Source: Limnephilus marmoratus (Eukaryota; Arthropoda; Insecta; Trichoptera; Limnephilidae). Taken from it: a stretch of DNA of 64,000 bases. The notes below the pieces were generated by a model. The model saw only the letters and a program-made list of their open reading frames with translations. It did not search any database and was not told the DNA's origin. The stretch spans positions 38,242,962 through 38,306,961 of the forward strand of contig OU862928.1 in assembly GCA_917880885.1 (NCBI GenBank), read 5' to 3'. Each line of letters starts with the position of its first letter. Positions within the stretch are counted from its first letter, which is position 1. Below, in pieces: positions 8,099 to 60,702 of the stretch. A program made the translations under genes and the position numbers.

Positions 8099-8512
8099 CT
8101 AGCTGGGGTATCCGGATTCGCTTAGGGAGTTGACGAGAGATAGAACTGACGTTTGAACCCAAGACAGATCTTGCTTTATATACCCCTAACCATTATTCTG
8201 TAATGTCCCACAATGATCTGGGATGTTCACGAACTTTCCAGACTATTCCCGAACATTCCAGAACGTTCCGGGATGTTCTGGAATGTTGTGGAATGCTCTC
8301 GAACGTTCTGGACTGTTCTAGATATTTCTATAGAGGGAAACTTGCAGCCCTTATAACTTCAAAAGCACGCCCTTCAGGTAAAAACGGGAACCTTCTTCAT
8401 GGATAGGGGATAGAGGGCTACCACACCACACAACTCCTTTGATCATCCCGGGACTCATTTCTGTTTTTTAGCGGCACGCAATCTTGTACTCTTCAATCTT
8501 TTTACATATTGA
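8099..8512 (-). mobile_element. HSE-rich Helitron-like repeat, copy 1
   Basis: On the minus strand it starts TC after an A and ends CTAG before a T. Internal blocks such as CAGGTAAAAACGGGAACC, GATAGAGGGCTACCACAC and GGGACTC are shared with the copies at 28.1, 29.1 and 60 kb. At 8,246-8,268 five triplets alternate TTC, GAA, TTC, GAA, TTC with exactly two bases between each, and 8,276-8,283 adds TTC/GAA. That is the heat shock factor binding pattern. There is no coding capacity. Confidence 0.7.
8246..8283. promoter_or_regulatory. heat-shock-element array
   Basis: Five contiguous alternating TTC/GAA triplets at 5-bp periodicity (8,246-8,268) are followed by a further pair at 8,276-8,283. Three contiguous units are the usual minimum for HSF trimer binding. 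Whether HSF binds here is untested. Confidence 0.6.
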
Positions 8513-9227
8513 TAACGACATTTGTAAACGTAATTCACCATTTTTGTAGTGTAGAAAAATTCCACTTTTTCAAAAATTGCCGATTTTATTGAAAAGTGGA
8601 AATCTTTTGACCTTCTTAAAAAAACCCCGATTTCTGAGGGGTTAAGGTTCCCCGACCCCTGCGTTAGTGCGTAAGTTGTACGACACCGTGTCAAAATACC
8701 GAACAAAGCTATCGTTACAGTATTTAGAGTGATTTGGACCAAATTGTTTGACAGGCTGGACAGTGGACTGAATCCGGGTTGCAACATTTCTATTGGTAAA
8801 ATACACAAGAGGTACATAAAGCAAGCATAGGCCCGGCAAAAGGTCAACGTGGTAGGCCTGATTTTAGTCACGTAGGCAAAAAAATAAAAGGTTCTTATCA
8901 AAGGGCTCGAACGAGAATAGAACTATCTAGAAGGGACAGAAGCGAATCAGAAGAACTCAAACAGTTATAAAAAATATCATTAATAATGAGTTTCAATGAA
9001 AAATATAACGTTTTTATTGAAACTAATAATAAACTTTATTATACTTTTTTTTATTTACGTTATCGTTGGTTTAGAACAAATATATTGGACCAAACGTCCG
9101 TACTATAGGAAGCTCTAAGTTATTCTGGAGCTGGGTACCCGAACACTGCGAGGGCCCAGCGGTCTACCGTATACCGTCGCTTATTATTTCCGTAGCCGTT
9201 TGTGCATTAGACACGAACGACGACAGA
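8513..9227. other. unassigned interval with a 148-codon minus-strand frame
   Basis: The frame at 8,455-8,901 (minus) has no recognisable domain. It is rich in F, Y, L and K and overlaps the Helitron-like end, so I treat it as chance. Nothing else is recognised. Confidence 0.4.
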
Positions 9228-10065
9228 TGACCCTCTTTTAAGGTACTCCTTAACTGACATCTGTTGAGACACCTAAAAACTACATAAAACTATCTATGCT
9301 AACAATGTTAACTAACATCAGAAGGATGTTGAAACTACTTGCATAATCATATTTGTCCCAAAATTCAACGATAAGCTGGCACCAGTGGGTGGGCCTATTC
9401 ACGACTCCTCGAGATAAAAATAGAAAAAAAAAACTCAATTTAAAAAAAAAAATTAACATGCAACAATTTTTCAAATATTTCAAATTTTTTTTAAATATTT
9501 TGTTTGTGGCTAGTTTTCCTAGAGTAATATACCATTTTAAATCTTGCGTAGATGCGTAAACTTAAAAAAAAACTTGCCATAGTAATGTCCATACTTTTTT
9601 TTACACCACGATGAGTGAAAGTGGACTGAAAATAAAAATCTTTCATAATTTTTAGAAAAACAATAATTTTGATTGATTTTTGTGTAAAAACTACAGGCAT
9701 TCATGGATTTTAAGGCTTGTGGCGCTTCTTAGGTTGCCGATACAAAAAAAAAACAGAAATATTTGATAAATTGTGGTCATGGTAGTTAAAAATATCTTAA
9801 GAGGTGTCAATTTTCAAAAGATTTAAAAAATTTTTGTACATTCAAAAAAATTGAGAAATATTTTTTTTTCTATTTTTTTCTCGAGGAGTCATGAGCAGGC
9901 CCACCCACTGGTGCCCGCTTATCGTTGAATTTTGGGACAAATATGATTATGCATGTAGTTTCAACATCCTTCTGATGTTAGTTAACATTGTTAGCATAGA
10001 TAGTTTTATGTAGTTTTTAGGTGTCTCAACAGATGTCAGTTAAGGAGTACCTTAAAAGAGGGTCA
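9228..10065. mobile_element. foldback element with arms of about 185 bp
   Basis: The left arm (9,228-9,415) and right arm (9,880-10,065) are inverted copies. Both contain AGGTACTCCTTAACTGACAT, CATCAGAAGGATGTTGAAAC and CACCAGTGGGTGGGCC in mirrored order and end at a CTCGAG. The roughly 460-bp interior is A/T-rich with no transposase. It abuts the second copy of the other foldback family. Confidence 0.75.
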
Positions 10066-10750
10066 TTTATTTTTTATTTTTGGAGTCGGTGTCAACCAAG
10101 GTACCCGCGGCCCGGCGTGTTCACTTGACAGCTCCTCTCCCGCCGACACCGACTCCAAAAATAACAATCGTACCTACATATTGATGAGTAGAAAAGGTAA
10201 GTTGATTATAAAGTTGTAGAAGAAGACGAAATTATTTTTTTCCTTTTTAGTGCATTTTTTGAAGTCGTTTTTTTGTTTTGTTAAAATTTTTGTTTATTTT
10301 TTGATTTTTAGAGAATCTGAAGTACACTAACTAATTCGATTAAGATTCGGCCGAGTATCGTAAATTTGTTCTTCAGAATTGGAGAGTTCCGTTACTTTGT
10401 CATGGATCCCATAATCAGAACCTAACCAAACTCTCATCAAATTACCCTTGAAGTACATCCTTTCCAATAAAAAAAGAATCATCGAAATCGGTTGGCGTGA
10501 TATTGAGTTATTCGTCCATTTGTCGCGCACATACTTGATGCAAATTTAAGACTTATATGATTTTCTCATGGATGCCATTGTCAGAACTGGACCAAATTAA
10601 AATGGGACCACACGGGAAGCACCAGCTTTCAAATAAAAAAAGAATCATCAATATCGGTTCACCCAGTCGAAAGTTCTGAGGTAACAAACATAAAAAAAAT
10701 ACTGTCGAATTGAGAACCTCCTCCTTTTCGAAGTCGTTTAAAAATAGTTT
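10066..10750. mobile_element. foldback element, copy 2 (left arm truncated, spacer inverted)
   Basis: The right-hand 600 bp is almost identical to 6,872-7,490. The left arm is reduced to about 25 bp (TATTTTTGGAGTCGGTGTC). The GC-rich central spacer (10,094-10,143) is the reverse complement of the spacer in copy 1. Confidence 0.75.
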
Positions 10751-10775
10751 TTTTTTTTTTTTTACAGTGAATACC

Positions 10776-10990
10776 GCACAAGAATCTCAACTGCTCGGGA
10801 GCCAGTGAGACTATGGCATCCCCAATTAGGGTATGTTGTGAGGCTGAAGGTAGTGGGAAGGGGAAGGAGGTGGGGACGAGGAAGGTTGGGAAGTACCTGG
10901 CTATTCAGATCTGGTCACCAAACACGGCTAACGCCATTTCAAGCAACGTTTTAATTCTGAATGGTGGTCTTACACCAGGGCGATACTGAT
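10776..10990 (+). repeat. dispersed repeat D, copy 1
   Basis: It matches 51,650-51,865 with shared GAGGAAGGTTGGGAAGTACC, TATTCAGA.CTGGTCACC, AACACGGCTAA and TTCTGAATGGTGG blocks. The family is unidentified. This copy directly abuts a SINE. Confidence 0.6.
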
Positions 10991-11086
10991 AGTATCTTCC
11001 ACTCTGGAACATGCCGCAAATATACTATATATTATTTTAAATGAATTAATTGTGAAATAACACAAATTAATCAAATAAAATTTATT

Positions 11087-11162
11087 TGCGCATGCCGGGT
11101 TCGAACCCGCGACCTCCGGATTGTGAGTCAAGAGTCTTACCCACTGGACTACGGAGGTCGTC
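11087..11162 (-). repeat. tRNA-derived SINE head
   Basis: On the minus strand a tRNA-like order is present: GACCTCCGTAGTCCAGTGGG (A-box region), a loop CTCACAA (anticodon position CAC), then GGGTTCGAACCC (T arm with a perfect B box). The acceptor ends do not pair and the anticodon stem has a mismatch, so it is not a working tRNA. An AT-rich tail follows. It is most likely a SINE. Confidence 0.7.
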
Positions 11163-11700
11163 GAATACATCTAATGCTAATTCTACATGGATGACTTTAG
11201 AGAACTAGTAGGTATAACAATTCATATACTTACGAGCAATATTATATTGTTAGTTATAATGATTGTTTATCATTATCTATTGTCCTCAGTCCTGTGCCAA
11301 AACAGCACTGTTATTGTTCATTTTGTTCTCTTGGCATTGCTTTGTACATACTGCATATTGCTTGTTTCATATTATTTTATCAATGTTTTGTAAAGGAAAA
11401 ATATAGGATAAAAAAGGCAACAAAAATTGGATAAAATTTCGTCCGATACGTCCCTTTATATCCTTATAAGATGTCAAAAGAAATAAGACACAAAACGTTG
11501 AAATGATGTATTTGTATTTATCACAAAATTGACGCTATTATTCAAATTTAACATAATCACCAGAAACACGATAACCACAAAAATAGTAGGTAATTATAAC
11601 TTTGGGATAAAACAATCATTCTTACACTTTTTGACATTGAGCGCTTTTATTATTTCCGTGACGATTCATCGTTACGGTACCGTGACGGCATACAAAAGGC
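11163..11700. other. unassigned interval
   Basis: AT-rich. A hydrophobic 68-codon frame at 11,187-11,393 has no recognisable family and is probably chance. Confidence 0.4.
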
Positions 11701-12165
11701 AATAAACATATAATATATAATACATTAACAATGATATACAAACTTAAAAATAATATCCCAAGTTATCTGCAGAGTAATATATTATGTGTTTCATGAAAAT
11801 GTTCACAATTATCCTACGAGAAGACGCGGAGACTTTAGGCTTCCCAAAACTAAACTTTCGTGCACACAAAATATCGCGTTTTATAAAGGGCAAAAACTTT
11901 ATAACAGCCTGCCGAATGCCGTAAAGGAAGCTTAGCACTTTTCGTAGGATATGTGCATTATACAGGGTGTTAAGGGACGTACTTGACTTACTTTAACCAG
12001 TGATTCCTGACATTATTTGGAGTAAAAAATGTAAATGTAAACGTGCACACAAAATAGCGCGTTTTATAAAGGGCAAAAACTTTATAACAGCCTGCCGAAT
12101 GCCGTAAAGGAAGCCTCAAGACTTAGCATTTTTCGTAGGATATGTGCATTTATACGTAAAGAATG
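11701..12165 (+). pseudogene. LINE C-terminal end, partly duplicated
   Basis: The plus-strand translation around 11,800-11,935 reads NYPTRRRGDFRLPKTKL, then FYKGQKLYNSLPNAVKEA. This is the familiar last block of Jockey/I-type LINE proteins (TR..DFRLP..., YNSLP..IK). The part from CACACAAAAT through CCGTAAAGGAAG is repeated at 12,048-12,112. The two copies are separated by about 75 bp that begin TACAGGGTGT, the end sequence of a mariner-type MITE. Confidence 0.6.
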
Positions 12166-12179
12166 TTTTTTTATTTGTA

Positions 12180-13984
12180 ACAATCTTACCAATATTATTT
12201 TAGTCAGAGTTATCTGTTTTCCTTAAAATGTATTTTTGTGTAGTAATTTTTTTCCCTCTTAAAATGTATTTGTAAAAATGTAACTGTATATATAAATTGT
12301 ATTTGTATATATTTTCTTACTAGAGGTATGAAAATTTTTTGCGAACATCTAAATAAATATTCAAAAACAAAACAAAAAATACGTTCCTCGTCGCTATAAT
12401 GCTGCAGCTCTTTCAAAAGATGAGATACACAATGTACGTAGATATGTTGACTCCGAAGGAAAAAAAGTCATCATTTACTTGCCATCTTTCTCACACACCG
12501 CACCGTGACGTCTTCGTAGACCCTACAATACTATAGGTCTCGCAAGTTAAGTTGACTTCATCACAGTACTCACACAGATGCAAAACTTTCATACAGCGGG
12601 TTTCGTTTTAGGCTTTTAACAAAAAAAGCAATTAATAATTATTTCACAATTGAGAATTCGAATCCAAAGCGTGTTTTAATCGGTAACATAAAACTAATGT
12701 TGTTTTACAACATTTTTATAGAAATACTGAAGATTTAGGAAGAAAAATAAGTTTATTAACTAAATGTGATATTCAGGATTGAAATCAAATGGGTATTCAT
12801 AGCTAACAACAAGGTTTAAAAAAATATTGTGTTATTTAAAAAGATTAATTTATTATAATATTCATACTTATGTAGATAATATTTTATAAAGTAAATAATC
12901 TACAAGCCGCCACATGCCGCTACACGTTTAATAGGCATAGATTTTGAAAAGTAAACGACTGTTAAACTTAATTACCAAAAGAAACATCGGTTTCGGTCGG
13001 GAGAGTTAGAAAAATATGCATTAAAATTGGGTTTTCAAAGTTAAAAATTTCCCATATAAAATCTCCATTGCCGCCATTTTTTTGTACGGATTTGACATTT
13101 GTAAAGTTTCTTTTAAAACTCAATACGCATGAATTACTTGGTTTACCTAAACCTAATTTTGAAACTAATGTTGAAATGAAGTGTGGTTTCCAAAATCTGT
13201 GCTTAAAAATTTGGCTGCTTATGGATAATTTATTTTTTATAATTATGTGTTAGCAATCATCAGCAACAGTAATTATTTAATTATGTACCAGTCATCATCA
13301 GCAACTATCTATACGTATATTATCTAAAATATAACAGATTACTAACACAAAGCTACAAAAGATTAAATGTTGAATAGGTACTAGTCTGTAATACTCCAGT
13401 TGCCTTAGACGTCAAATCATACAAGTCATTTATGCTTAAAAGTTGACCACCGTTTTTTTTCATTATGAATAAGTAAAATAATTAAACATACGGAATAAAA
13501 TTTCATGATTTGGTCCATTCAGTGATTTGCCACGTTCCGTTTCGTAACAGGACTCCATGATATCGTAATAAATATTAAACTTGCACACTTTACAAACACT
13601 ATTTATTATTTCAAATTTATAAATTTGTCATTATTTGTCACTTGCGAAATGTAAGTGCACGTATGTTTAAATCAAATTACGAACCGAATGAATAGGACAT
13701 CCTGTAAGTACAGCCTTAAAAGGTTGTCGTTAAACTTGCCTCTCTTCTAACTAGTTACAATAAGCGGGCGTAAGCAAGACAGAGAGCCTTATCGGATTTG
13801 TGGGCGTCGCTTTACGTTCACACAGATAGACCAATACTAAGCATTTTTATTGCTTCCAACTTAAAGTGTTTTACCTATACTAGCCGTGACGATAATATTG
13901 AAAGTATGGAATATACTTACGAGGATAATATTGAAGTGTGAGTGAATTCCAAAAATTCAAAACGTCAATGATGCTTTTATTCAA
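12180..13984. other. unassigned AT-rich interval
   Basis: No gene recognised. CGCTATAATGCTGCAGCTC at 12,391-12,409 also occurs, reversed, near 14,225, so part of this belongs to the same MITE-like family. Confidence 0.4.
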
Positions 13985-14250
13985 ACATATAAATGCTGCA
14001 GCTCTTTCTTGCACGCTAAATAACAATAGTCAAAAATGAGACAAGTGGTGAACGTATGTCTGCACCCCCCCCCGCAAAAGGAAACATACAATGATTATCG
14101 TACATCTCCCTCACACGCATAAAGAAAATAAAACGTAATTCCCGTCGCAAAAAAGTAGTACTTAGGAGGAAACAGTCACACGTATTTTGTGTGTCTCGTC
14201 ATCATTTAATATGTAAGAAAGAGCTGCAGCATTATAGCGATAAGGAACGC
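13985..14250. mobile_element. MITE-like inverted repeat
   Basis: ATGCTGCAGCTCTTTCTT near the left end and AAGAAAGAGCTGCAGCAT near the right are inverted copies about 230 bp apart. A related single end lies at 12,391. Target duplication not determined. Confidence 0.45.
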
Positions 14251-14823
14251 AAGTTTATCACCTTTTTTCGTAGTCACGGTAATTATAAAAGCGCACATTG
14301 GGTAACTCCGTGACTCTAATTTTCCAAGTCGTAATTTGGAAATTTTCAGGTGCTTTATGATAAAGTAGCACGAAGATGTTTTGGCATTATTTATTTAATA
14401 CTAATTTGAGACAAGGAAACCACGTCAATGGCGAAAATTTGAGTTCATTATACTTGTGAATGATAATATGGCGTGTCAAATAATTGTTAAATACATTGTT
14501 TAGCAGCTAAAAGCCGATATTCTACTAAAAGGTACATTTAAATCTAAAATTACTGAGTCACAAATCTTTATCGTTATTATATTCTTGTTGTTTTATTTAG
14601 CTTCGAACCCTCGCGACTCTTTACAAAAAAGGTGCATTTTACGTGCCATGTATTCAATGCAAGAAAATGAGAATGTCCATCGTCCTGTTGATTAGCCAGA
14701 CATCTCTGAAAATCTAAATTTGAGTATACTGTTATATCTAATTATGAGCATGCTGTTATATGTAAAAGTGTACCCTCTATCTGGTACAGTTTATTACTCA
14801 TAAACACCAACAGATCAATTATA
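14251..14823. other. unassigned interval
   Basis: No gene, RNA or repeat recognised. Confidence 0.4.
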
Positions 14824-14840
14824 ATGCAAAAAAACTTGCA

Positions 14841-15185
14841 GTGCAGCGCGCGGTATTTGGTCCGACGCCCGGATCACCACCTCACGATCACGATCTCACC
14901 ACCCGGGCAAGAAGACACCCCATTGGCCGAGCTACCCCCACCCCTCCGTCATCGGCCGGCACAACCCCGCCCCAAAGGTTATACAACACCGTGCAGGCCT
15001 ATATGGAGCCAGAGTATCCAGTCTCACCTCCCCAGTACCAAGTCGAGAGAGAGCTCTGGGTCCTCCTCGGAAATCTCTGTCCTACTTGTCGGGAAAACCT
15101 TAACCCAACTAAGAGACCACAAGTCCTCTGTGGAGGTTATTACGCTAAGTGTTTAGCGAGAACGTTAACATTGTTTAAATTCTAA
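14841..15185 (+). CDS. unidentified GC-rich ORF with a CxxC pair
   Basis: The stretch 14,840-15,160 is far more GC-rich than its surroundings and is open in two overlapping frames (14,824-15,156 and 14,841-15,185). The second, 114 codons, has a Pro/Thr-rich first half and then LCPTCRENLNPTKRPQVLCG followed by GYYAKC. That gives two Cys pairs that could bind zinc. The 3' side has AATAAA-type hexamers (15,251). I do not recognise the family. It could be an exon, a processed copy or part of a retroelement. The unusual composition is the main argument that it is not chance. Confidence 0.3.
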   Translation: MQRAVFGPTPGSPPHDHDLTTRARRHPIGRATPTPPSSAGTTPPQRLYNTVQAYMEPEYPVSPPQYQVERELWVLLGNLCPTCRENLNPTKRPQVLCGGYYAKCLARTLTLFKF

Positions 15186-15189
15186 GTGA

Positions 15190-15545
15190 TTTTATTTTGT
15201 GCTACAACTTCCTGTACTCTGTTTTTTACTATAAGCTGTGAACCCTGTAAATAAACTGACCAACGCTGAAAGACTATTTTCTTATAAATACCCTGCCTCA
15301 GCAGTTAATTGAAGAATTTTTTATTGTTTTCTGGGTCACCAATAAGTAGGGTATTTCAAAATGTCATACTGATGTACCGGACCGTTATGCCTCCCGGTGT
15401 AATTGTATAGGATATTTAATATCTATAACACAAACGTGTAATTTTGATTAATGGTGTACATTCGAATTGCATTCCTCATTATCTGACAACTTACTATTTG
15501 GAGATATCTGACTAATCAACTGAACGATTGCGTATAATTTGGTAG
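15190..15545. other. unassigned interval
   Basis: Possible 3' flank of the GC-rich ORF. No other feature recognised. Confidence 0.35.
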
Positions 15546-16008
15546 TCGGGTACGTGTACTGTCGCCCCGGTAACCATTTATTTTATAACCAACACCCATG
15601 CCATAGGTCGCCCCAAGTGGTTTGCTACGTTTGATGATTTAGCAGGGAGGTCCGGGTTCAAGCTGTGAGGTTTGTCTAGATCTTGGCGGCGGATGCGTTT
15701 GTCCACCAACTGCTTGGCGGGCCGGATCGAGACTGGTTGAGGGAGGCCTTTTGAACTCTCCAGCCGGACTCTCGCGACCCATCGCCTTATACTGCAGTGG
15801 GAGTGTGGGGGGGATGGATTCATTCCTCCAACACTCCTGGACACACTGACCACCAGATTCCTGCCCAGCCCTCATACCCTTTTCCTATCTAAAACTTTTT
15901 CTCCTTCCTTCTACTAAAAAGACCCTCCACACAGCATCTCTCTAGCATAGGCCCTCAGGGATGCTTTATTCCTTGTGGCCTTCTGTGTGGAGCTAATGTA
16001 AAAAAAAA
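15546..16008 (+). mobile_element. SINE-C, long form
   Basis: The layout is shared with copies at 36.9, 51.2, 56.3 and 61.3 kb. It has a head with AACACC.ATGCCATAGGTC and a CCGGGTTCAAGC B-box-like block, a middle with GGATCGAGACTGGTTGAG, and a C/T-rich stretch. It ends ACCCTCCACACAGCATC, a hairpin, then TGTGTGGAGCTAATGT and an A-run. The A-tail and tRNA-like head mark it as a retroposed SINE. Confidence 0.7.
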
Positions 16009-16033
16009 CGAGTGTGTTTTAGGCCACACAACT

Positions 16034-16347
16034 GAAGTAAAACTTCTTTAGCTCCAACTATATGATAGAAGAAAATGTGCGCGCGCACTGCTCTCTCTTG
16101 CTCCTACAGTGTCATACAGACAATAGGCCTGCACTGTGTAAAGTAACGTATGAGAGAAAGAAAGAAAGAAAATGTGTAATGCGTAACGTAACGTATGAGA
16201 GAAAGAGAGAAAGAAAATGTGTGCTCGCACCTCTCTCTCTTGCCCCTACAGTAATATACGAAGCGTTCGCCTCGCTTTTCGTAACGCTTTCGTCACGCAT
16301 TCGCCAGCTTATTCCCCAAGTCAAGCGTGCGTAAAGAAGTTTTACTT
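16034..16347. mobile_element. MITE with 16-bp perfect terminal inverted repeats
   Basis: The ends are AAGTAAAACTTCTTTA (16,035-16,050) and TAAAGAAGTTTTACTT (16,332-16,347). The interior contains direct repeats of ACGTATGAGAGAAAG (16,146 and 16,192) and an approximate repeat of AAAATGTGYGCNCGCAC. Similar ends occur in repeat E. No transposase. Target duplication not visible because the right flank is an A-run. Confidence 0.7.
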
Positions 16348-16651: not shown

Positions 16652-16659
16652 GCTATGCG

Positions 16660-28141: not shown

Positions 28142-28613
28142 CTAAGCTGGGGTACCCAGCTTCGCTCAGGGAGTTGATATGAAATTAAACTGACGTTCGA
28201 ACTCACGAAATTTATTTACCAATGGGTAGCCTCACCCATACAAAAAAGACTTAGAATGGTCCACAATGTTCCAGAACATTGCACAACATTCGAGAGTGTT
28301 CTGGAATGTTCCACAAAGATGTTCCTGATTACCTATCCCGAACATTCCACAACATTCCAGAATGTTCTGAGATGTTCTGGAATGTTTTGGAATGCTCTCG
28401 AAAATTCTGGACTGTTCTAGAAATTTCTAGAAGGCAAAATTTCCAGCCCTTATATCTTCAAAAGCAGGCCATTCAGGTAAAAACGGGAACCACCTTCATG
28501 TATGAGGGATAGAGGGCTACCACACTAATAAATCCTTTGATAGTATCGGGACTCGTTTCTGAGTTTTATTGGGACGCACACTTTTGTACACTTTCTTTTA
28601 TAATATATATTGA
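28142..28613 (-). mobile_element. HSE-rich Helitron-like repeat, copy 2
   Basis: Same blocks as copy 1 (GATAGAGGGCTACCACAC, CAGGTAAAAACGGGAACC). On the minus strand the 5' end is TCAATATATATTATAAAAG. The 3' end is GCTTAG before T, one base off the CTAG of the other copies, preceded by a GCTGGG/CCCAGC hairpin. It carries the densest set of GAA/TTC triplets of the four copies. Confidence 0.65.
28265..28434. promoter_or_regulatory. heat-shock-element arrays
   Basis: Runs of correctly phased alternating triplets occur at 28,299-28,311 (three), 28,355-28,367 (three) and 28,415-28,432 (four: TTC, GAA, TTC, GAA). Isolated pairs lie between. This many phased units in 170 bp is not expected by chance. 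Confidence 0.6.
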
Positions 28614-29104
28614 ATATTGATTATTAGCCCGAGGTTAAGTTGTCCATTTCGCTCAGTGTTTGGTAGGGGAGAGCTAACAGCTACAGTTACAGTAAGAATC
28701 AATATTTAAGAAAAATATAATTTTCTTTAATTTAAAACAATGCCGAGTTTGAATCTTCATTGTGGCTGTATGTATCGTAGACTATCACTGGATATGCGCC
28801 ACAGTACCTACTAACAGTCGACTTGATATTTTATGATCTGTGGATAATTAAAACCATTATAGTAAAAATAAGCCATGATAAAGCAAATTGATAGGATTAA
28901 TTTGAATAATTAAAAGTAATTAGTAATTACTATCGTGCTTGTGATAAAAAATCGACATTACAATCAATAAGGTAATGTTTTGTTACTAGATACTTTTCTT
29001 TATGTAAATCTTGTGAGATTAACAAAACAAACCTCCTCTTTCCTTACAGAGAAACTCAATTGTGTGTTTTAATTGATTGTGTCGTCCAAAGCACAAAGAA
29101 AATA
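28614..29104. other. unassigned interval between two HSE-rich repeats
   Basis: AT-rich. It lies between copies 2 and 3, which face in opposite directions. No gene recognised. Confidence 0.4.
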
Positions 29105-29463
29105 TCATATTACATTTATATTATAAAAAAAAGTCTAAAAAAACGTGCGTCCCGCAAAAACTCACAAACGAGTCCCGGTACGACCAAGGGAGTTATATGG
29201 TGTGGTAGATCTCTATCCCCCCTCCAGGATGACGGTTCCTGTTTTTACCTAAAGGGCGTGCTTTTGAAGATTTAAGGGCTGGAAGTTTCGCCATCTTGAA
29301 ATTTCTAGAACAGTCTTCCGGAAAGTTCTAGAAGGTAGAGATAGAGCTCTAGAAAGTTCTGGAAAGAGTGGCGGAGTATGTCGTGGAATGTTCGAGAATA
29401 GGGCATCGGTAACGTCATTGTGGAACATTCCAGAATAATTTCCAATATTGTCCACCAAGCTAG
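29105..29463 (+). mobile_element. HSE-rich Helitron-like repeat, copy 3
   Basis: Begins TC after A (TCATATTACATTTATATTAT) and ends CTAG before T. Shares CGTGCGTCCCGCAAAAACTC, ACGAGTCCCGGTAC and GGGCGTGCTTTTGAAGAT with the other copies. No coding capacity. Confidence 0.7.
29298..29333. promoter_or_regulatory. heat-shock-element array
   Basis: GAA, TTC, GAA at 29,298-29,310, then TTC, GAA, TTC, GAA at 29,316-29,333, all with two-base spacers within each run. Confidence 0.55.
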
Positions 29464-44640: not shown

Positions 44641-44877
44641 TTTTAAATGAAAAAAAAAAAAATAATAATAACATGGAGGTTGGTTAGTATAATATGTGTA
44701 TGAACAAAGAATTCTATGTATGTAGTTCCTAACTAGACTCTGTACCCGGGAAGAATAAGGATGCAAGTCCAAAAAGGTAAATGTTCAGGAGAGCCAAAAA
44801 ACTTTTTTTCTGTAACTATGGTCTCATAACTTCTTCGGATATCCGTGCTGATAGATAACAAAAAAATTAATGATTAA

Positions 44878-45334
44878 GATGAAGTCATAGTAAATAATGC
44901 AAAATCATATGTTTTTGTTTTGAAAATTTGATCGCTTAGAAGTATTGTAGATGCTTCAATTAAATACTGCGTGTAGAACATACCTTGGCCCTTAAAAATA
45001 TCGGTCATTTTTTTACAAGTCTTTTAATAAGCCTATAAAAAAATAAAGTATAAGGTCTAAAAAACACACTTTGAAGTCCAAACTCTCCTATTTATAAATC
45101 CCTTTTCGGATATGGTTTTATTGTGTAATGTGGCAAATTCAGTTTATTTTATAATAATCGCAAAAAAAGTTGATCTTTACACCCAATCTTCCCAAAATAA
45201 AATAAAATATGCATTTTCGCGTTGATATTTTACAATACGGCCGCTAGTCGACGAATTCGGTTATTCAAAGTGACCCCTATGGCGTCCACCGAAGAACTAC
45301 TGTCAACGGCACAGTAGTGAACTAGTGGATCGCC
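44878..45334 (-). mobile_element. 457-bp TTAA-flanked element, copy 1
   Basis: It is almost identical to 59,366-59,822 in the opposite orientation and exactly the same length. TTAA flanks both copies on both sides (44,874-44,877 and 45,335-45,338 here). A TTAA target suggests a piggyBac-type non-autonomous element. However, the ends (GGCGATCCAC and GATGAAGTCA) are not inverted repeats, which is unusual for that class. Confidence 0.75.
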
Positions 45335-45338
45335 TTAA

Positions 45339-46784: not shown

Positions 46785-47880
46785 ATAAACAAAGAACAAC
46801 TTGAACAACGAGATACAATGTCATACAAAGAACAACTTGTCATTCAAGTAACAACTCGTCAATACAAAGAACAACCTATCAAACAATGCACTACAAAGAA
46901 CAACTTGTCTCATACACAAAACAATTTGTCAAGCAAAGAACAACTTGTCATACAAGTAACAACTCATCATCATACAAAGAACAACATATCAAACAACGTA
47001 CTACAAATAACAAATTGCCATACATAGAGCGTCTTGTCAAATATAACTACAATGCTACAAAGAACATCTTGTCAGATACAACTAAAATGTCACAAAGAAC
47101 TACTTGTCATACATATAACAACTGGTCATACAAACAACATCTTGTCAGAAACAACCATAATGTTATAAATAACAACTTGTCGTACAAATAATAACATATC
47201 ATACAAACAACAACTTGTCGTACAAACAACATCTTGTCAGACACAACTAAAATGTTACAAAAAACAATTTGTGAAAAAAAGATCAACTTGTCATACAAAT
47301 TCCAACCTATCAAACAACGTACTGCAGAGAACACATTGCCATACAAAGAACATCTTTTCAGATACAACTATAATGTTACAAAGAACAGCTTATCATACAA
47401 ATAACAACTTGTCATACAAACAAAATCTTGTCAGACACAACTACAATGTTATAAAGAACAACCTGTCTTACAAATAACAACATATCATACAAATAGCAAT
47501 TTTCAGACAACGACCTACAATGTAATAAGATCAACTTGTCATACAAATAGCAATTTTAAGACAACGAAATACAATGTAATACGACCAACTAGTCATACAA
47601 ATAGCAATTTTCAGACAACGAAATACGATGTAACAAGATCAACTTGTCATACAAATAGCAATTGTCATACAACGAACTACAATGTAATAAGGTCAACTTG
47701 TCATATAAATAGCAATTTGAAGACAACGAAATACAATGTAATAAGATCAACTTGTACAAATAGTATTCTCAGACAACGAACTACAATGTAATAAGATCAA
47801 CTTATCGTACGAAGACAAATTGTTAGTCAAAGAACGACAATGTAATTCAAGGAACCACTTGTCATACAAAGAACTAACTA
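46785..47880. repeat. 1.1-kb minisatellite
   Basis: The basic unit is about 20 bp, ACAAAGAACAACTTGTCATA, with many variants. From about 47,490 on, a higher-order unit of about 55 bp takes over (AACTTGTCATACAAATAGCA, then AATTTT.AGACAACGAAATAC and AATGTAATAAGATC). Frames read through it on both strands and are not genes. Confidence 0.9.
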
Positions 47881-52904: not shown

Positions 52905-53012
52905 ATATAAAATAAAAAATAGAGCAAAAATCTCGAGGCAAAGGTCTTAAATAGCATTTAAAGCTTTTTTTCATATATACATATATACAATATGTATAAC
53001 TTGTAAAATAAC
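52905..53012 (+). repeat. repeat J, copy next to the RTE remnant
   Basis: AGCAAAAATCTCGAGGCAA and ATAACTTGTAAAATAACAG match 39,775-39,866. It abuts the RTE coding sequence directly. Confidence 0.6.
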
Positions 53013-53372
53013 AGCAGTCCACAATGGAGTCCTGGTACCTACCCTGATGTATGGAAGTGTGGCATTGAACTGGCAGAGGAAGGATGAAAGCAGACTGCAT
53101 GCTGTTGAAATGAGATCCCTGAGGCGTGTATGTGGTAAAGCCATGTATGATCGTGTGAGAAATGTGGAGATCCGCAAAGAATGCAAGGCTGATGTAAGCG
53201 TAATGAGTAAGATTAAGAAAGGGACCCTCAGATGATTTGGGCATGTATAGCGAATGAATGAAGAAAATAGTGTAGGAAGAATATTTGTCGCAAATGTGAA
53301 TGGTAGAAGAAGTCGGGGACGCCCGAGGAAGGTAGGCACGATATTTAAAATCCTTTCTAGAAAGCATTTCGA
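53013..53372 (+). pseudogene. RTE-clade reverse transcriptase, C-terminal region
   Basis: The translation reads VLVPTLMYGSVALNWQRKDE, RLHAVEMRSLRRVCGKAMYD, RVRNVEIRKEC, then after a stop FGHV and, in another frame, FVANVNGRRSRGRPRKV. The order LMYGS..W...D...L...EMR.LRR..G....DR.RN..IR.EC, FGH..RM, GRRSRGRPRK is the RTE C-terminal tract. Stops and a frameshift kill it. It extends the protein represented by its tail alone at 40,163-40,444. Confidence 0.8.
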
Positions 53373-53392
53373 TATGTTAAAATGATTCTTCA

Positions 53393-53480
53393 ATTTCACC
53401 AGAAGTAAGGACTAATTTAGCTTACTTCCGACAAAAGGAAACGCCCATAAAATACACTACTATCGGTTTATCTCTTCAGT
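53393..53480 (+). repeat. RTE-associated tail repeat, copy 2
   Basis: Matches 25,345-25,440. Confidence 0.55.
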
Positions 53481-53685
53481 GGGGGAAGAATAGGTGAAAG
53501 AGAAGGAGGCAACACACAAGTAATAAATATTAATGCGATGGTTAAGTGTAAAGTTGAAATAACCGTTATAATATTGTCTGCGAGAGAATAATTATTTTAA
53601 CCCACTGTGGGTTACGAATAATCGCAGGCAGACATACAGAATAATCCATCATGTTCCTACAACATCCAAAAGAGGTATAATTTTT

Positions 53686-53822
53686 TAAAGTAAATGAAGA
53701 AACTCAATCGAAAATCTGGAGACAGAAAAATCAGAAAAAGATATTGGCACCTCTGGGACTCGAACCCAGGACCTTTCGCTTTCCAGGCGACAGTGGAGGT
53801 TATCCACCTCTTACCCGCCCTA
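53686..53822 (-). mobile_element. tRNA-derived SINE
   Basis: The minus-strand head has GGGCGGGTAAGAGGTGGA (A-box region), loop CTGGAAA (anticodon position GGA) and the T arm CTGGGTTCGAGTCCCAG with a perfect B box. The body AGAGGTGCCAATATCTTTTT to CGATTGAGTT matches 2,455-2,510. The long variable arm of tRNA-Ser is missing, so it is not a working tRNA. Confidence 0.75.
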
Positions 53823-54213
53823 GTATAAGTAACAGATGGTTACTCCTTCAAGGCTCTCGCAAGATTCAAACTTTTTTGTTAAACGAAGCTACATTTATTT
53901 ATTTTAAACGAATCTAGACTTCCAGTGCCCTTGCATATGTTGTCAGTAAGCAGTATGCAAGTGCTTAACAGGAAAAACAAAATGCAAAAAAAAATAGGTT
54001 AGTAAGACAAAGATAAATTAAACAGGGCAAAAGAAAAACTCATTCATGAGGCTCCATGAGGCGGCATTGCATCTGTAAAAACCTGCAAGCACCTGCATAA
54101 AATAGAGAACATAAGTAATACAATAAATCTCTAATCAATTGGCAAGTACCAACAAAAAATGTGAATGGCTTTCGGTCTGACCATAAACTACACTTAGCTT
54201 CCGTGTCCCTAAT
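53823..54213. other. unassigned interval
   Basis: No feature recognised. Confidence 0.35.
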
Positions 54214-54433
54214 GTCGGCCATACACGCTACGGTCTACCGGAGAGGTGTTGGAGTAGGAGCAGTTTTTGCGTGCAGAATCGAAAATCAATTCTTTTGGGT
54301 GACATCGTACGCTGCAATCGATGCCATCGCAAAGAGAACTGAAGACCGCTCCGGTATACCCACGTCCCCATACACGCTACCGGCAGACCTGCACAGGTAA
54401 CCTCTCCGGTAGACCGTAGCGTGTATGGCCGAC
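54214..54433. mobile_element. 220-bp MITE with perfect 34-bp TIRs
   Basis: GTCGGCCATACACGCTACGG followed by TCTACCGGAGAGGT at the left is repeated exactly, inverted, at 54,400-54,433. Perfect arms indicate recent activity. The interior carries another CCCATACACGCTACCGG. Superfamily and target duplication are unclear. Confidence 0.8.
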
Positions 54434-54750
54434 TTTAGCCAACCACTCAGTGAAGCCTCAAAGAAAGTTAACCGAATATTTGGGGTAAAATACGCGAAGA
54501 CCCGAAAAGAAAATTCAGAGTTGGATAGTCAGAGGCAGGACAAAGGACAGTCAAGGTCGTCTGATCAAGCCTCAAGCCTGCACATGTCATTGGGGGAGGC
54601 GCAGATAGATTTGAGAAGGATCTGCAAAATTAATAATGTAACTAACGATGAAGCAGGGACGAGGTCCAGCACACCCCCATATGGGGATAGGGAAATAAAA
54701 AAAAATTGGAGAAAAATTTCCGGGCGACAGCTGTGACCACTCAGCTGAGG
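54434..54750. other. unassigned interval
   Basis: An open frame (54,425-54,736, 103 codons) is rich in K, S and D but matches nothing and starts inside the MITE. Treated as chance. Confidence 0.35.
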
Positions 54751-54751
54751 T

Positions 54752-54860
54752 GTCTATATCCGATTCGGTCATTTTAACTGTATCATACTTCGACTAAGAA
54801 CTACCAACATTATCGACATTTTTCTTAACGCATATTTTATTGGCTGCTATCTTTATGTAT
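54752..54860. repeat. repeat matching 2,495-2,600
   Basis: GATTCGGTCATTTT.AACTG, GACTAAGAACTACCA and CATATTTTATTGGCTGC match. See 2,411-2,605. Confidence 0.55.
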
Positions 54861-55114
54861 GATTGCAAGATTCAAACTCTAACTAAATGCTATCTAGATA
54901 GTGTCTGAATAATTTTTTATCCATTTTATTTTTTAATATGCGACATCTATTGACTTTTCAGCAAGTCTAGGGTGAATTTTTATTTTTGACTTTTCGAGTA
55001 ATACTTCAAATTGTAATATTCGTTTCGATTTAGTTTCGAAAATATTGTCTTCATTTAATTAAATGTTACAATTTGAGGTTTTACTCATAGAGTTTAAAAA
55101 AAATAAAGAGATAT

Positions 55115-55855
55115 CATAGACATGTGAATATTACTAGACCAGAACATAAAGGTGAGGGGGAGAAACCAACTACAGCGGGGCGCAGAGCGGGAAGATGACT
55201 TTGGTGATATGTGATTCGTCAATAACTCAATATGACAGTATATGGGCATCTCGCATTATAATATCACCATTTAGTTCTTAAAAGTAAACTCTGCTTTTGA
55301 ATGAATAGACCTTTTTACATGGAAGCGCGTCTTGCTCACCGCGTAATAAATAAATTTGCGAATTCCAAATACGGTAAAGTAAAGTTCTCCTATTTTCATA
55401 GTTCAATATTTTGTTGCCGTATTTAGTTAAGACACTTTTACAAATGTTTCATAATTTACTTATCCCACTAAACAGCGACGAGCACACGCCATGTATCTCG
55501 AGTGATAATAGTGTGTGTTACAAAAACGACCATATTATGTGATCTGAATAAGCTTAAAATAAAGTAAAAAAATGCTTGCATATGGAATGTAATACGACAA
55601 TTGGGTTTATTCTCTTTTTCACTTCTATTTTTACACGTTTTCAAAACAAAAGCCACTATTTTTTGCCGTGTTATTTCGTAAAATACACCGATGAGTGCTC
55701 GACGCTGGCACGCTGAATAATGATGACGTCACATTTTTTATATTCATGCGAAGCCATACTCGATCCTAGCCGGTTCCAATGAAACCGATATGGGGAGGGG
55801 GAAATAATACGCTTTTATCGCTTAGGGCAGGTCTAGTAATATTCATATGTCTATG
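55115..55855. mobile_element. hAT-like non-autonomous element H, copy 2
   Basis: Ends CATAGACATGTGAATATTAC and, inward from the right, CATAGACATATGAATATTAC, about 26 bp with one mismatch. AGAGATAT is repeated exactly at 55,107-55,114 and 55,856-55,863. The 8-bp duplication indicates hAT. The interior has no transposase. It is 170 bp longer than copy 1, partly through TGTATCTCGAGTGATAATAG and the sequence after it. Confidence 0.85.
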
Positions 55856-55863
55856 AGAGATAT

Positions 55864-56340
55864 AAATTCTTTGTCTAAATACCGCACCAGAGTTAATAAT
55901 GTTCGGAGCGAGTGGAACTACGGTAGCTATTATCGGTGATCTTTAACATTTAAAAATGTTTGAATAATTAAAATATTAATTTTATTGTTTGCAAGTAATG
56001 AATACGAATCCGGAACAAAACGTTAGCCAAGATGTTCATTATAAGACACTTGGAGATATAAATTACACATTAAAATGTGTATATCTGGAGACTAGCAGTT
56101 CTGTGAATATTTTACTTCGAGTAATGTTAAATTCTCCGACTTGACAGCTTGACTTGACAGCTCTCAGCAGTCCCAACGCTCTTGCGCTCTGGCGGAATAA
56201 AAGGGTACTATCAAACACGGCTACCACCTTGACAGGAATACACAAACAAATTTGCAGACAGATGAAATGCAAAGTGAAAGATTCAGAACACGGCCAAAAA
56301 TATATTTATATTACGGTAGCAGAGTTGTCCAGATTTGAGG
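55864..56340. other. unassigned interval
   Basis: No feature recognised. Confidence 0.35.
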
Positions 56341-56344
56341 ATTG

Positions 56345-56590
56345 TCCGGATCTTGACGGCGGATGCCTATGCCCACCAACTCCATGACAGGTCGGATCGG
56401 GATAGCCCTTTTGACCTCTTCAGTCTTCAGAAAGACTCTCTCGGAACATCGTCTTGCACCGCAGTGGGAGGGATAGTTTCATACGTCCGTCACTCCTTGA
56501 CACACTGACCCTAAGATTCCTACCCACCCTTCATACATTTTTCCTTCCCAGAACACAAAAAGACAATGTGTGGAGCCAATATTTTTTTTG
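56345..56590 (+). mobile_element. SINE-C, long form, truncated and decayed
   Basis: GATCTTGACGGCGGATGCC, CGGATCGGGATAGCCCTTTT, GCACCGCAGTGGGAGGGAT and CGTCACTCCTTGACACACTG match the long copies. Head and hairpin are missing. Confidence 0.6.
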
Positions 56591-56599
56591 GGATTTGCA

Positions 56600-57828
56600 A
56601 CTTCGATAGGCCACTTGCATGGATTTCATAACGACTTGGAAAAAATCATGTGGATAGATCTTTTTACTAAGATTAAGAAAATGGTAGAAAAATTGTTTAG
56701 AAATATACAATTTTTTTATTTTTAAATAAATAAATCCATTATTTGGGGTCGTGACGTCACTACACGAAAATGTCCCGTCTCCGAAAATGTTCCTTTTATT
56801 TTTTTAAAATTCCACACTGATTTATTTTTTTATATGGCATCACTTTGATTTCAGGCGAATTTTTGAATTCGTTCACTAGATTTATTGTTTGTTCTCTGCG
56901 AACTTATCATTTGGTTTCACTTTTTGACAGATGCTCTGAAGAGAACCCCGTACTTTTAATGATCTACGGGGTTCTCTTCAGAACGTGCAGATGATGTCGG
57001 TACGTGTTTTAGAGGTATAATGATTATGGTGCTGATTTTAACAAAATTAAATTTTATAATATTCTTATTATTATTATAATTTACAAGTTTAAGTATATTA
57101 CATTGAATTTAGTAATATAGACACTGTTCATTATAATGATTTATGATCAATAAGATGGATCAAGGAAAAATAATATTTATGAGATGTAATATTTTTGGTA
57201 TGCCTCGTTATTCTCCTGTGCCATTCGTGTGGAAAACGTTATTTTTTTTAAATGATTTTCGGCTATGTAATTATCGTTTTTTCACACCTATAAAATTATG
57301 TCCCGTCTTTCCGGTTTATAAAAAATGGTCTGATTTTTCGGATTGAAATTTTCAAAAAATCCCCAGGGTTTCAAAAATACGATTAAAAAAAAAATAAAAA
57401 TGCAGAACGTCTAAGAATATTTGCCTAAACCGGAAAAAAAATTAAAAAAAATTGATGCAAGTGGCCTATTGAACCTTAAATTGTGTAATAATTTTACAAG
57501 AATTTGGTCTTTAATATGGAGGGTCGGCACGGCTAAATGATTCATGTGACTCGCGTGACGTGCTTTGCCAATTTGGGAGTGATCTCACGCACGCAATGCC
57601 AATTGAATCCGCGTGCTGTATAAACTACACATCGTTGTACCAATCCGCACTTAGAAAAAGAACTGGCCATTATCATTCCATGGGGTCGAATGGACAGCCA
57701 TCGTTGGAATGGAATACGATAGATTTAGAGACTGGACAGTATAAGCGCTACACAATCCCAGAATCGCCCTACAAAAGACAACCAACCGGAATAGAAACGC
57801 ATAGCCAATGTTGATACTACACAGTACC
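56600..57828. other. unassigned interval with one hairpin
   Basis: At 56,937-56,983, CTGAAGAGAACCCCGTA and TACGGGGTTCTCTTCAG are perfect inverted copies around a 12-bp loop. No gene recognised. Frames at 57,143 and 57,560 show no known domain. Confidence 0.4.
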
Positions 57829-57831
57829 TTA

Positions 57832-57991
57832 GGGAACGTACCCATACTACGTGACACTTTTGGGGGGGGGGGTCTTCAAAAGGTCACGCTCCATACAAAT
57901 GAGCGGCGGGTTCCTTAGGATTTTGGTCACCGGGGGGGGGGGGGGGGTTAAAAATTGCAAAAAGTTGGTCACGTAGTTTGGGTACGTTCCC
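57832..57991. mobile_element. 160-bp MITE with TTA target duplication
   Basis: GGGAACGTACCCATACTACG at the left and, inward, GGGAACGTACCCAAACTACG at the right. TTA flanks both sides (57,829-57,831 and 57,992-57,994). A 3-bp TTA and GGG ends fit PIF/Harbinger. The interior contains two long G-runs. Confidence 0.8.
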
Positions 57992-58049
57992 TTACCTTAA
58001 ACTATGTCAATACATATATAATTAATCTACCTAGCTCCTAAAATCTTTC

Positions 58050-58082
58050 GCCTGATGAAGCTTAAAACCGGTACTTGGCCGC
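58050..58082 (+). ncRNA. hammerhead-like motif, degenerate
   Basis: CTGATGA is followed by AGCTTAAAACCGGTA. The GAAA core has become AAAA and stem II is reduced. Probably inactive. Confidence 0.3.
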
Positions 58083-58428
58083 TCGTGCACCGGTGGGATC
58101 TAATTTTTTCAAAATCTAAAATTTTTGTATGCGATTTTGATCCTTATGTATAAAGAAATTGTATCAAGAACAAGGTCAGAATCGCTTGCGCCAATAGTAC
58201 TCCTGATACCACCAAAAGTTTCATTCACCTGGTAACACCAGAATATTTTAAAATTAATTATCTGTGGAATAAGAAAGTCACATTTTACCGCGAATTCAAC
58301 TGTCAAATTCAGTCGATGGTCGGTCACAAAAACTTCAATAAACCTGTCAATTCATCAAATAAACACAAGTAATATTTTCGTTATTTGTTTTTGGGGTGTT
58401 ATGCCGTGTTGCGCTACCTCCTTCTTTA

Positions 58429-58470
58429 GCCAACGTTTCGGACATCGTTGCAGTGTCCATCATCAGGGCA
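58429..58470 (-). ncRNA. hammerhead-like ribozyme motif
   Basis: Minus strand: CTGATGA (58,466-58,460), stem II GGAC/GTCC, GAAA (58,439-58,436), CGTTGGC. Confidence 0.5.
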
Positions 58471-58496
58471 GAATTACACATCTACCGGATCTGCCC

Positions 58497-58540
58497 TGCC
58501 CTGATGATGGACACTGCAACGATGTCCGAAACGTTGGCTA
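58497..58540 (+). ncRNA. hammerhead-like ribozyme motif
   Basis: CTGATGA (58,501-58,507), stem II GGAC/GTCC, GAAA (58,528-58,531), CGTTGGC. Inverted partner of the preceding motif. Confidence 0.5.
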
Positions 58541-58700
58541 AAGAAGGAGGTAGCGCAACACGGCATAACACCCCAAAAACAAATAACGAAAATATTACTT
58601 ACTGAAAATATACATCGACTGAATTTGACAGTTGAATTCGCGGTAAAATGTGACTTTCTTATTCCACACATAACACCCCAAAAACAAATAACGAAAATGC

Positions 58701-59361
58701 TTTTGGCCGTGAAAATCTTAAAACTTACAAGTAATATTGTTTTTTATCGATAGTTTATTGTTCAAATAATGTGTTTCGGTAAATAAAATAAACGATAGCT
58801 TAACCCTTCGAATAATAAGAAAATAATTTTCTGGCAAATTTTGCCTATAAAGGTTTGCGCGCAAAATTCCCGGTTCTTCCCATGCATTTTAAATGTTCCT
58901 ATTTATTGTTTTTTTTAACGCTTTTGCAAAATTAAATGCATACCTGCGAATATTCGAATTAAAGTAATTAAAATAGAATAAGCTTAAAATTTAAAATACA
59001 GACTCCTTTTCTAAATAAAATTTTTTAATAAAACTGTCACCTCACTTTTTATCACTTTCATACAATTTTATTTTAAAATTAAATGTGTGATACGTCACAA
59101 ATTGGTGAAAAATTAAACCGTCACTTTTGATCGGGTTTGTAAAATATCTGAACAACCTAGCTCATATAATTCTGAAGAGACAATGAGAAGCATTATTTAA
59201 TTCCGTTTCTAACATAAAAGAAATCACAAATATTCGCATGACAGAAAGAGAGATATCTAACTTTTAATAATGCACTGTCGCTCTGGGACAATCTGGGTCT
59301 CCTGTTATTATAACGGCATATGATGTTTTGGGACAACTTGGGTCTCCTGTGATTAGACGGG
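58701..59361. other. unassigned interval
   Basis: GGGACAAYYTGGGTCTCCTG occurs twice (59,286 and 59,331), a small tandem repeat. Otherwise nothing recognised. Confidence 0.4.
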
Positions 59362-59365
59362 TTAA

Positions 59366-59822
59366 GGCGATCCACTAGTTCACTACTGTGCCGTGGACAG
59401 TAGTTCTTCGGTGGACGCCATAGGGGTCACTTTGAATAACCGAATTCGTCGACTAGCGGCCGTATTGTAAAATATCAACGCGAAAATGCATATTTTATTT
59501 TATTTTGGGAAGATTGGGTGTAAATATCAACTTTTTTTGCGATTATTATAAAATAAACTGAATTTGCCACATTACACAATAAAACCATATCCGAAAAGGG
59601 ATTTATAAATAGGAGAGTTTGGACTTGAAAGTGTGTTTTTAGACCTTATACTTTATTTTTTTATAGGCTTATTAAAAAACTTATAAAAAAAATGACCGAT
59701 ATTTTTAAGGGCCAAGGTATGTTCTACACGCAGTATTTAATTGAAGCATCTACAATACTTCTAAGCGATCAAATTTTCAAAACAAAAACATATGATTTTG
59801 CATTATTTACTATGACTTCATC
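59366..59822 (+). mobile_element. 457-bp TTAA-flanked element, copy 2
   Basis: See 44,878-45,334. TTAA lies at 59,362-59,365 and 59,823-59,826. Only a handful of substitutions separate the copies by eye. Confidence 0.75.
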
Positions 59823-59971
59823 TTAACACAAATCGACAAAATATCACTTCAAAGTATGCTTTCCCGGATTTCGTAAGAAATGCTTCCTGGTTAGCAACAG
59901 GTAACATTAAAACCGAAACTCAACTGCATAAGTACCTACAGCACTCAAATAACACTAATAATCAAATAACT

Positions 59972-60119
59972 TTCTAGAACAGTACAGAACATTCGAGAGA
60001 ATTTCACAACATTCCAGAACATCCAGAAACATTCGGGGATGTTGTGGAACATCCCCGAACATCCCATATTATTGTGAAATATTCCAGAACACTCTCGAAT
60101 GTCGTGGAATGTTCTGGAA
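59972..60119. promoter_or_regulatory. heat-shock-element array
   Basis: Phased pairs occur at 59,972, 59,987, 60,012 and 60,082, and a triplet GAA, TTC, GAA at 60,107-60,119. More diffuse than in copies 1-3. Confidence 0.5.
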
Positions 60120-60215
60120 CATTGTGGAACATATGGGTGGGGCTACTCATTGGTAGGGGTATACAAAGTAAGATCTGTCGTGGGTTCGAACGTCAGTTCA
60201 ATACATCAACTCCCT

Positions 60216-60641
60216 GTCGATGATGTCGTTTCTCACCCGGCATGCCGCTTAAAGTCTCGAAAACCCTTCTGGACGGAAGGAGAAAGACTCCTTCGAACAC
60301 CTCTCACCCCAGAAGATAGGTGGAAGCTTGAGTGGCAATCAGCCAACGTCAAAAACGCCGATCTCGTGCAAGACCCCACTGAGAGACAGCCTGGGTTCTC
60401 ATTGCCTAGCAAACTCTGGACTGCCATCAATAGGATAAGGTGCTCCCATAGCCGTTGTGCTCACATGATGCATAGATGGGGCCTTAAAGAGTCGGCGACG
60501 TGTGAATGCGGTGCGGTGCAGACCACCGAACATGTGGTCAACGAATGCCCGCTCCATTCATTCCCCGGCGGGATTTATGAGGTCCACAGGGCAACGCCTG
60601 AGGCCCTAGACTGGCTCGCAGACCTAGATGTCCCCCTCTGA
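60216..60641 (+). pseudogene. retrotransposon protein C-terminal end with Cys/His motif
   Basis: The frame is open from the insertion point: SRKPFWTEGERLLRTPLTPE, PGFSLPSKLWTAINRIRC, HMMHRWGLKESATCECGAVQ, TTEHVVNECPLHSFPGG, ending LADLDVPL. W..(L/I)NR(I/F)R......C...(M/L)..WG...S..C.CG..QT..H(V/I)...CPL..F.GG is the conserved end of a non-LTR family widespread in arthropods. C-x-C with H and C may bind zinc. The natural stop is present; everything upstream is lost by 5' truncation. The first codons upstream of 60,216 belong to the Helitron-like repeat. Confidence 0.85.
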
Positions 60642-60666
60642 CCCCCCACCATACGAAAGAAGAAGA
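60216..60666 (+). mobile_element. 5'-truncated non-LTR retrotransposon with 11-bp target duplication
   Basis: ATCAACTCCCT is repeated exactly on both sides (60,205-60,215 and 60,667-60,677). The uninterrupted site is visible in the copies at 8.1 and 28.1 kb. The 3' untranslated region is only 25 bp and ends in a GAA-rich tail, both typical of RTE-like elements. Confidence 0.85.
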
Positions 60667-60702
60667 ATCAACTCCCTAAGCGAAACCGGATACCCCAGCT
60701 AG

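Follow-up and report, generated by a model that had tools for sequence, protein, structure and literature searches.

Phased heat-shock-element arrays and promoter-like motifs in a Helitron-like repeat family

The stretch of DNA analysed here, 64 kb of contig OU862928.1 and called the window throughout, contains four copies (c1 to c4) of a short non-coding family with Helitron-like ends. The copies are relics, diverging from one another by roughly 20-30%, and with n=4 they are too few to settle where the consensus ends lie or how old the family is. All of them carry alternating GAA and TTC triplets at 5-bp steps, the pattern of heat-shock elements (HSEs), the binding sites of heat shock factor (HSF). 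Every perfect HSE of the window lies within them. In two copies, a TATA-like motif and an initiator-like motif adjoin the array, so that the whole block resembles, in its motifs, a heat-shock promoter facing out of the 3′ end of the element.

Four copies and their Helitron-like ends

The copies and their main parts are as follows, with ^ marking the junction between element and flank.

8099..8512, minus strand: c1, the most complete copy, with the left end A^TCAATA at 8512 and the right end CTAG^T at 8099
8144..8183, minus strand: core-promoter-like segment of c1, with a STATAWAAR match from 8183 and TCAGTT at 8149-8144 (A at 8147)
8221..8330: phased array of c1, eleven 10-bp units, including a perfect five-unit run at 8246-8268
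28142..28620, minus strand: c2, with A^TC at 28620 and the right end TTAG^T at 28142
28254..28434: arrays of c2 in two registers, 28254-28313 (7/7 triplets) and 28340-28434 (14/14)
29105..29463, plus strand: c3, with the left end A^TC at 29105 and the 3′ block missing
59970..60702, plus strand: c4, left block lost; array, TATA-like motif, initiator and CTAG^T at 60702
60160..60198, plus strand: core-promoter-like segment of c4, with TATACAAAG at 60160-60168 (one mismatch to STATAWAAR) and TCAGTT at 60193-60198 (A at 60195)
60205..60677, plus strand: later insertion in c4, flanked by 11-bp direct repeats, ATCAACTCCCT, at 60205-60215 and 60667-60677

The initial annotation had recognised four related copies, and BLAST comparisons within the window bear out both their coordinates and their kinship: c1 and c2 are 79% identical over 323 nt, c2 and c3 75% over 350 nt, c1 and c3 81% over 187 nt, and c2 and c4 68% over 281 nt. 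Both ends are present in c1 and c2. For the left end of c2 there are two candidates, 28613, which is preceded by T and aligns best with c1, and 28620, which is preceded by A. The right end of c3 is uncertain, as the match there, without the 3′ block, is limited to AGCTAG^T at 29463. The insertion in c4 has no Pfam match and is presumably the 3′ part of a non-LTR (long terminal repeat) retrotransposon. Adjoining the left end of c2 (28620-28690, minus strand) is CACTGAGCGAAATGGACAACTTAACCTCGGGCTAA^T, a sequence similar to the 3′ end of c2 itself (CTGAGCGAAGCTGGG...TTAG^T). It may mark where another Helitron-like element, inserted head to tail, has its 3′ end.

The ends had been annotated as those of a Helitron, with A^TC on the left and CTAG^T on the right. 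This holds for the left end in all three copies that retain one (in c2 at one of its two candidates) and for the right end in three of the four (c1, c3 and c4, that of c3 being uncertain), where CTRR is followed by T; it does not hold for c2, whose TTAG^T is not CTRR. In its wider context the right end reads GCTTAG^T in c2 and AGCTAG^T in each of the other three copies. Ends of this kind agree with canonical Helitrons as described (PMC4067079; the articles cited here were available in part, and what is said of them refers to the available text). At the level of sequence, both the Helitron-like nature of the ends and an A^T insertion site are supported. Because the ends fit canonical Helitrons but the palindrome expected about 11 bp in from the 3′ end is missing, the family is named Helitron-like. 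When compared with shuffled sequence, the 3′ ends of c1 (z 1.3) and c4 (z 0.8) fold no better; in c2 a hairpin with an 8-bp stem abuts the 3′ end (z -2.7), and c3 is without the region. Canonical Helitrons make no target site duplication and leave A-T empty sites; by eye, TTA stands on both sides of c1, and no such junction match is seen in c2 or c3. Ten of the 79 open reading frames (ORFs) of at least 85 codons in the window were scanned with Pfam; none matched Rep/helicase, and a single sub-threshold match was to an unrelated repeat.

Similar architectures are known from other rolling-circle families. The non-autonomous Hel-2 Helitrons of insects have a 5′ TC, a 3′ CTAG, A/T flanks and a conserved part of about 250 bp, and some of them hold internal tandem arrays (PMC4344730). 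Compared by description only, the present family shares the TC/CTAG ends, the A/T flanks and the tandem array; however, Hel-2 elements have a predicted 3′ hairpin and a 5′ subterminal inverted repeat (PMC4344730), whereas c1 and c4 are without the 3′ hairpin. The Helentron-derived elements DINE-1/HINE and Cg_HINE likewise have a tandem array in the middle, enclosed by unique ends, but Helentrons favour insertion within TT and have subterminal inverted repeats of 12-15 bp (PMC4067079; PMC7492417). Neither Helentron trait was found here: the ends lie at A^T rather than within TT, and when the first 130 nt of c1 were compared with its last 90 nt, and those of c2 likewise, exact inverted matches did not exceed 7 nt.

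Phased GAA/TTC arrays

With an HSE taken as three or more nGAAn units that alternate in 5-bp steps, HSEs are found in all four copies. The copies make up 2.3% of the window sequence, yet they hold every perfect three-unit HSE in it, 15 of 15 with overlaps counted (four in c1, four in c2, six in c3 and one in c4). The same is true of the alternating GAA/TTC runs of at least three units at a 5-bp step, 11 of 11. When up to one mismatch is allowed, 58 of 74 three-unit windows lie inside the copies, a density of 38.6 per kb against 0.26 per kb outside. The phasing extends well beyond single elements: 16 of the 17 triplets between 8196 and 8345 in c1 share one 10-bp register, so that a single register is maintained over up to 130 bp. 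In c2, 21 of the 22 triplets (7 and 14) fall into the two registers listed above, and the remaining one, between the arrays, is in neither. The 16 triplets of c3 are grouped in five short HSE islands, every island with its own register, and 16 of the 20 triplets of c4 are in one register.

To assess chance, the dinucleotides of each copy were shuffled 2000 times. Phased pairs number 9, 11, 12 and 6 in c1 to c4, against shuffle means of 0.41, 0.49, 0.40 and 0.51, and for no copy did any of the 2000 shuffles reach the observed count. Shuffles of c1 and c2 never equalled the longest run, whereas 0.05% of those of c3 and 1.15% of those of c4 did. The clustering of the HSE pattern in the copies is more than chance. 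On these points the initial annotation is largely upheld. The runs that it quoted (8246-8268 with five units, 28415-28432 and 29316-29333 with four each) are confirmed, and the consensus for HSF trimers is strongly represented. Its dense arrays in every copy need qualification: each copy has a perfect three-unit window, but no run in c4 is longer than three units.

The arrays have a simple unit structure. The 37 in-register units of c1, c2 and c4 read GAA-YR-TTC-YR, and their 74 spacer slots are occupied 29 times by TG and 22 times by CA, together 51/74. Among the 60 pyrimidine-purine spacers, CG occurs three times and TA six times, against 13.3 and 16.3 expected for independent letters. Since CA and TG dominate and CG and TA are rare, the array looks like one 10-bp unit used in two orientations (GAACATTCCA and GAATGTTCTG). 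Tandem Repeats Finder reports periods of 20 in c1, 10 and 20 in c2, and 10 in c4, and none in c3. Decay of CpG is not favoured as the origin of the CA/TG spacers, the observed/expected ratio of CpG being 1.04 in the window, but 0.74 in the copies. Because the arrays of the copies align with each other, the array is ancestral to the family, and imperfect units common to several copies indicate that it was present, already imperfect, in their common ancestor.

Promoter-like block and neighbouring sequence

The consensus motifs for the TATA box and the initiator are known from Drosophila work. In c1, GTATATAAAG lies on the 3′-terminus side of the array, and the A of the initiator is 35 nt past its first T. 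The distance from TATACAAAG to TCAGTT in c4 is the same as in c1, and c2 retains TCAGTT (A at 28191). Over the copies, a TATA motif is thus found in two (in one of them with a mismatch) and the initiator-like TCAGTT in three. When both strands of the window are considered, STATAWAAR is followed at 20-40 nt by TCAKTY in two places, and c1 holds one of these pairs. The leader between the initiator A and the element's end measures 49 nt in c1 and 50 nt in c2, and neither contains an ATG; the corresponding leader of c4 is disrupted by the later insertion. The position of the TATA box and initiator beside the array gives some support to a promoter reading, which the initial annotation had not raised.

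A transcript from c1 would head toward a 169-codon stop-to-stop ORF on the same strand (7551-8057). To judge from its translation, this ORF resembles the terminal part of a reverse transcriptase of retroelement type; Pfam gave a single match, below the cut-off. No host gene is implicated at c1, because the ORF looks retroelement-derived.

Other parts of the window show the following. Among the best 120 of 176 matches of one window ORF, those with a species name come mostly from moths and butterflies, and otherwise from two beetles and one mite, none of them above 52% identity; a second ORF has 16 matches, including a ladybird beetle at 56%, and a third has two. These matches point to an arthropod host. 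Near-identical copies (99-100%) in inverted orientation, separated by about 14 kb, pair 45060-45338 with 59362-59640 and 44874-45014 with 59686-59826, which suggests a recent mobile element or duplication. A complex nested tandem array with ACAACTTGTCATACAA-type units and periods such as 19, 35, 54, 73 and 108 occupies 46792-47870.

Origin and possible role of the arrays

The favoured explanation, to which a probability of about 0.5 is given, is that an ancestral Helitron-like element carried, close to its 3′ end, a promoter of heat-shock type, from which HSF would have driven outward transcription after stress, the present copies being relics of that element. Stress-activated HSF trimers would bind the array, and transcription would start beside it and run outward via the 3′ end. 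The source element may have used such a promoter to transcribe itself or to open its DNA for rolling-circle copying; in the host genome, the copies would seed heat-inducible transcription starts. Through their perfect runs of three to five units, the present copies probably still bind HSF in vitro. The anatomy, the HSE consensus and the core-promoter-like motifs are read directly from the DNA; the use of the sites by HSF, and with it the regulatory system envisaged in the initial annotation, is an inference from them.

Several observations weigh against a heat-shock promoter. No TATA motif lies within 60 nt upstream of TCAGTT in c2, and the TATA box is absent from c3. Where both motifs occur, the distance between them, 33-35 nt, is a little beyond the usual ~30. 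Moreover, the looser TATAWAA (87 sites) and TCAKTY (184 sites) form three pairs at 24-38 nt in the window, c1 included, so the pairing of TATA and initiator is not very rare. As regards Helitron membership, c1 and c4 lack the 16-20 nt palindrome that canonical Helitrons have about 11 bp before the 3′ end. In addition, seven-unit GAA/TTC runs are present in nine IMG/VR contigs (five distinct sequences by their visible flanks), and L006, the one contig of these that was scanned, has a phage terminase match, in a protein that matches Terminase_3 and LAGLIDADG_3. As these contigs carry the same runs, the HSE-like pattern alone does not imply HSF and can arise without it.

The remaining points of this kind concern conservation. 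In the 37 in-register units (a set that omits nine units of c3 and the out-of-register stretches 8196-8220, 28314-28339, 59997-60036 and 60067-60086), triplet letters match at 191/222 positions, and the 51/74 CA/TG spacers compare with 54.9 expected under equal decay (p 0.29). Pairs among c1, c2 and c4 are identical at 151/173 triplet positions and 94/110 spacer positions; these sums set aside columns of mixed class (99/129 identical in c1, c2 and c4), and the three pairs share copies and are not independent. Over the flanks, the same pairs are identical at 332/399 positions. In two pairs with c3 the triplets are better kept than the spacers (40/44 vs 13/20, p 0.027; 42/43 vs 14/20, p 0.003), an excess that is biased because the register of c3 was defined from its perfect runs. 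Selection on the triplets beyond that on the spacers, the criterion adopted here, is not supported in c1, c2 and c4, and there is no clear sign in the aligned copies of HSF binding having preserved the triplets after they spread.

This lack of a clear excess of conservation is what would be expected if a non-autonomous Helitron or Helentron had simply had a minisatellite at its centre, which slippage or unequal exchange enlarged; the near-palindromic 10-bp unit would then match the HSE by accident and have no regulatory role. Such an origin is quite conceivable, though at rather less than even odds. Central or internal tandem repeats are known in such elements (PMC4067079; PMC7492417; PMC4344730), and the periods of 10 and 20 in c1, c2 and c4, together with spacers that fit one unit in two orientations, speak for it. 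A minisatellite would leave unexplained, however, why a TATA box and an initiator border the array and why both orientations of the unit are mixed within short stretches.

Two other origins have far smaller chances. TEAD/Scalloped binds ACATTCC(A/T), and sites of NF-kB type read GGRRNNYYCC. ACATTCC, which is contained in the units of the array, occurs ten times in the copies and six times elsewhere in the window (6.66 vs 0.10 per kb), GGRRNNYYCC three times inside and seven times outside, and the CA/TG spacers, which TEAD would need and HSF would not, are kept about as well as the triplets. That the array binds one of these factors is nevertheless improbable: perfect HSE windows are commoner (15) and all confined to the copies, an alternating 5-bp register is the geometry of the HSF trimer, and the two leading bases of the unit, for which TEAD would have no use, are equally kept (in 32/37 and 33/37 units). 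Maintenance of the array as DNA or RNA hairpins (cruciforms) for transposition is more improbable still. The arrays do fold, and c2b does so marginally better than its spacer permutations (3.8%), but when spacers were permuted and triplets kept fixed, 32%, 71% and 69% of 500 permutations folded as well as c1, c2a and c4c, and permutation of whole units was as good in 34%, 63%, 8.8% and 80% of cases (c1, c2a, c2b and c4c). Selection for hairpins is thus unsupported by the permutations, except marginally in c2b.

Relatives of the family were sought by exact-match pattern scans. No loci were found for block B, the 3′ end or the promoter block in viral contigs, nor for block B and the 3′ end in genome contigs; this absence says little, because the scans required exact matches and the collections are poor in animal DNA. 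Among the IMG/VR contigs, L001 (609-641), L006 (2697-2729) and L008 (5877-5909) have a common seven-unit run followed by TTAAC repeats, and eight-unit GAA/TTC arrays occur in the GC-rich contigs L004 (4004-4041), L003 (497-534) and L009 (1103-1140).

The closest known system is that of Caenorhabditis, in which Helitrons have rewired the heat-shock response (PMC6927752). There, HelitronY1_CE and other, mostly non-autonomous Helitrons contain dense HSE clusters, at which occupancy by HSF-1 and RNA polymerase II is reported to rise after heat shock (Garrigues et al., 2019; PMC6927752). The likeness lies in a Helitron-type element with dense HSEs; here, in contrast, the host is probably an arthropod, the array is phased at 10 bp, TATA and initiator motifs adjoin it, and the case is known from sequence alone. 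That work scanned UCSC genomes in which Helitrons are annotated, and among these, according to its available text, enrichment of HSEs in Helitrons was confined to Caenorhabditis (PMC6927752). The pattern scanned for is given as NGAANNTCCNNGGAN in the results text and as NGAANNTTCNNGAAN in the methods (PMC6927752); the former matches none of the four copies, and the latter, with its reverse complement, matches all four. A misprinted pattern as the cause of the negative result was rejected, as the methods give the correct one. Among the matches listed from titles and abstract openings of the open-licence literature, there was no HSE-bearing Helitron outside Caenorhabditis. The LTRs of TCN3 and TCN12 in Cryptococcus are a further case of putative HSF sites of a mobile element beside a promoter, but these elements belong to the LTR class and are not Helitron-like, their putative HSEs number one or two, and the available text describes no phased array (PMC12810828).

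Beyond the favoured explanation, it is conceivable, if unlikely, that a Helitron-like lineage, probably of an arthropod, independently gained a complete outward heat-shock promoter at its 3′ end, comprising a phased HSE array, TATA, initiator and ATG-free leader, and scattered portable heat-inducible promoters. If so, the family would be a second case of HSE-bearing Helitrons, unrelated to that of Caenorhabditis and with a core promoter attached. Such portable promoters could add new transcripts to the heat-shock response, and a second case of this kind would point to heat-shock coupling as a strategy that rolling-circle elements have adopted repeatedly.

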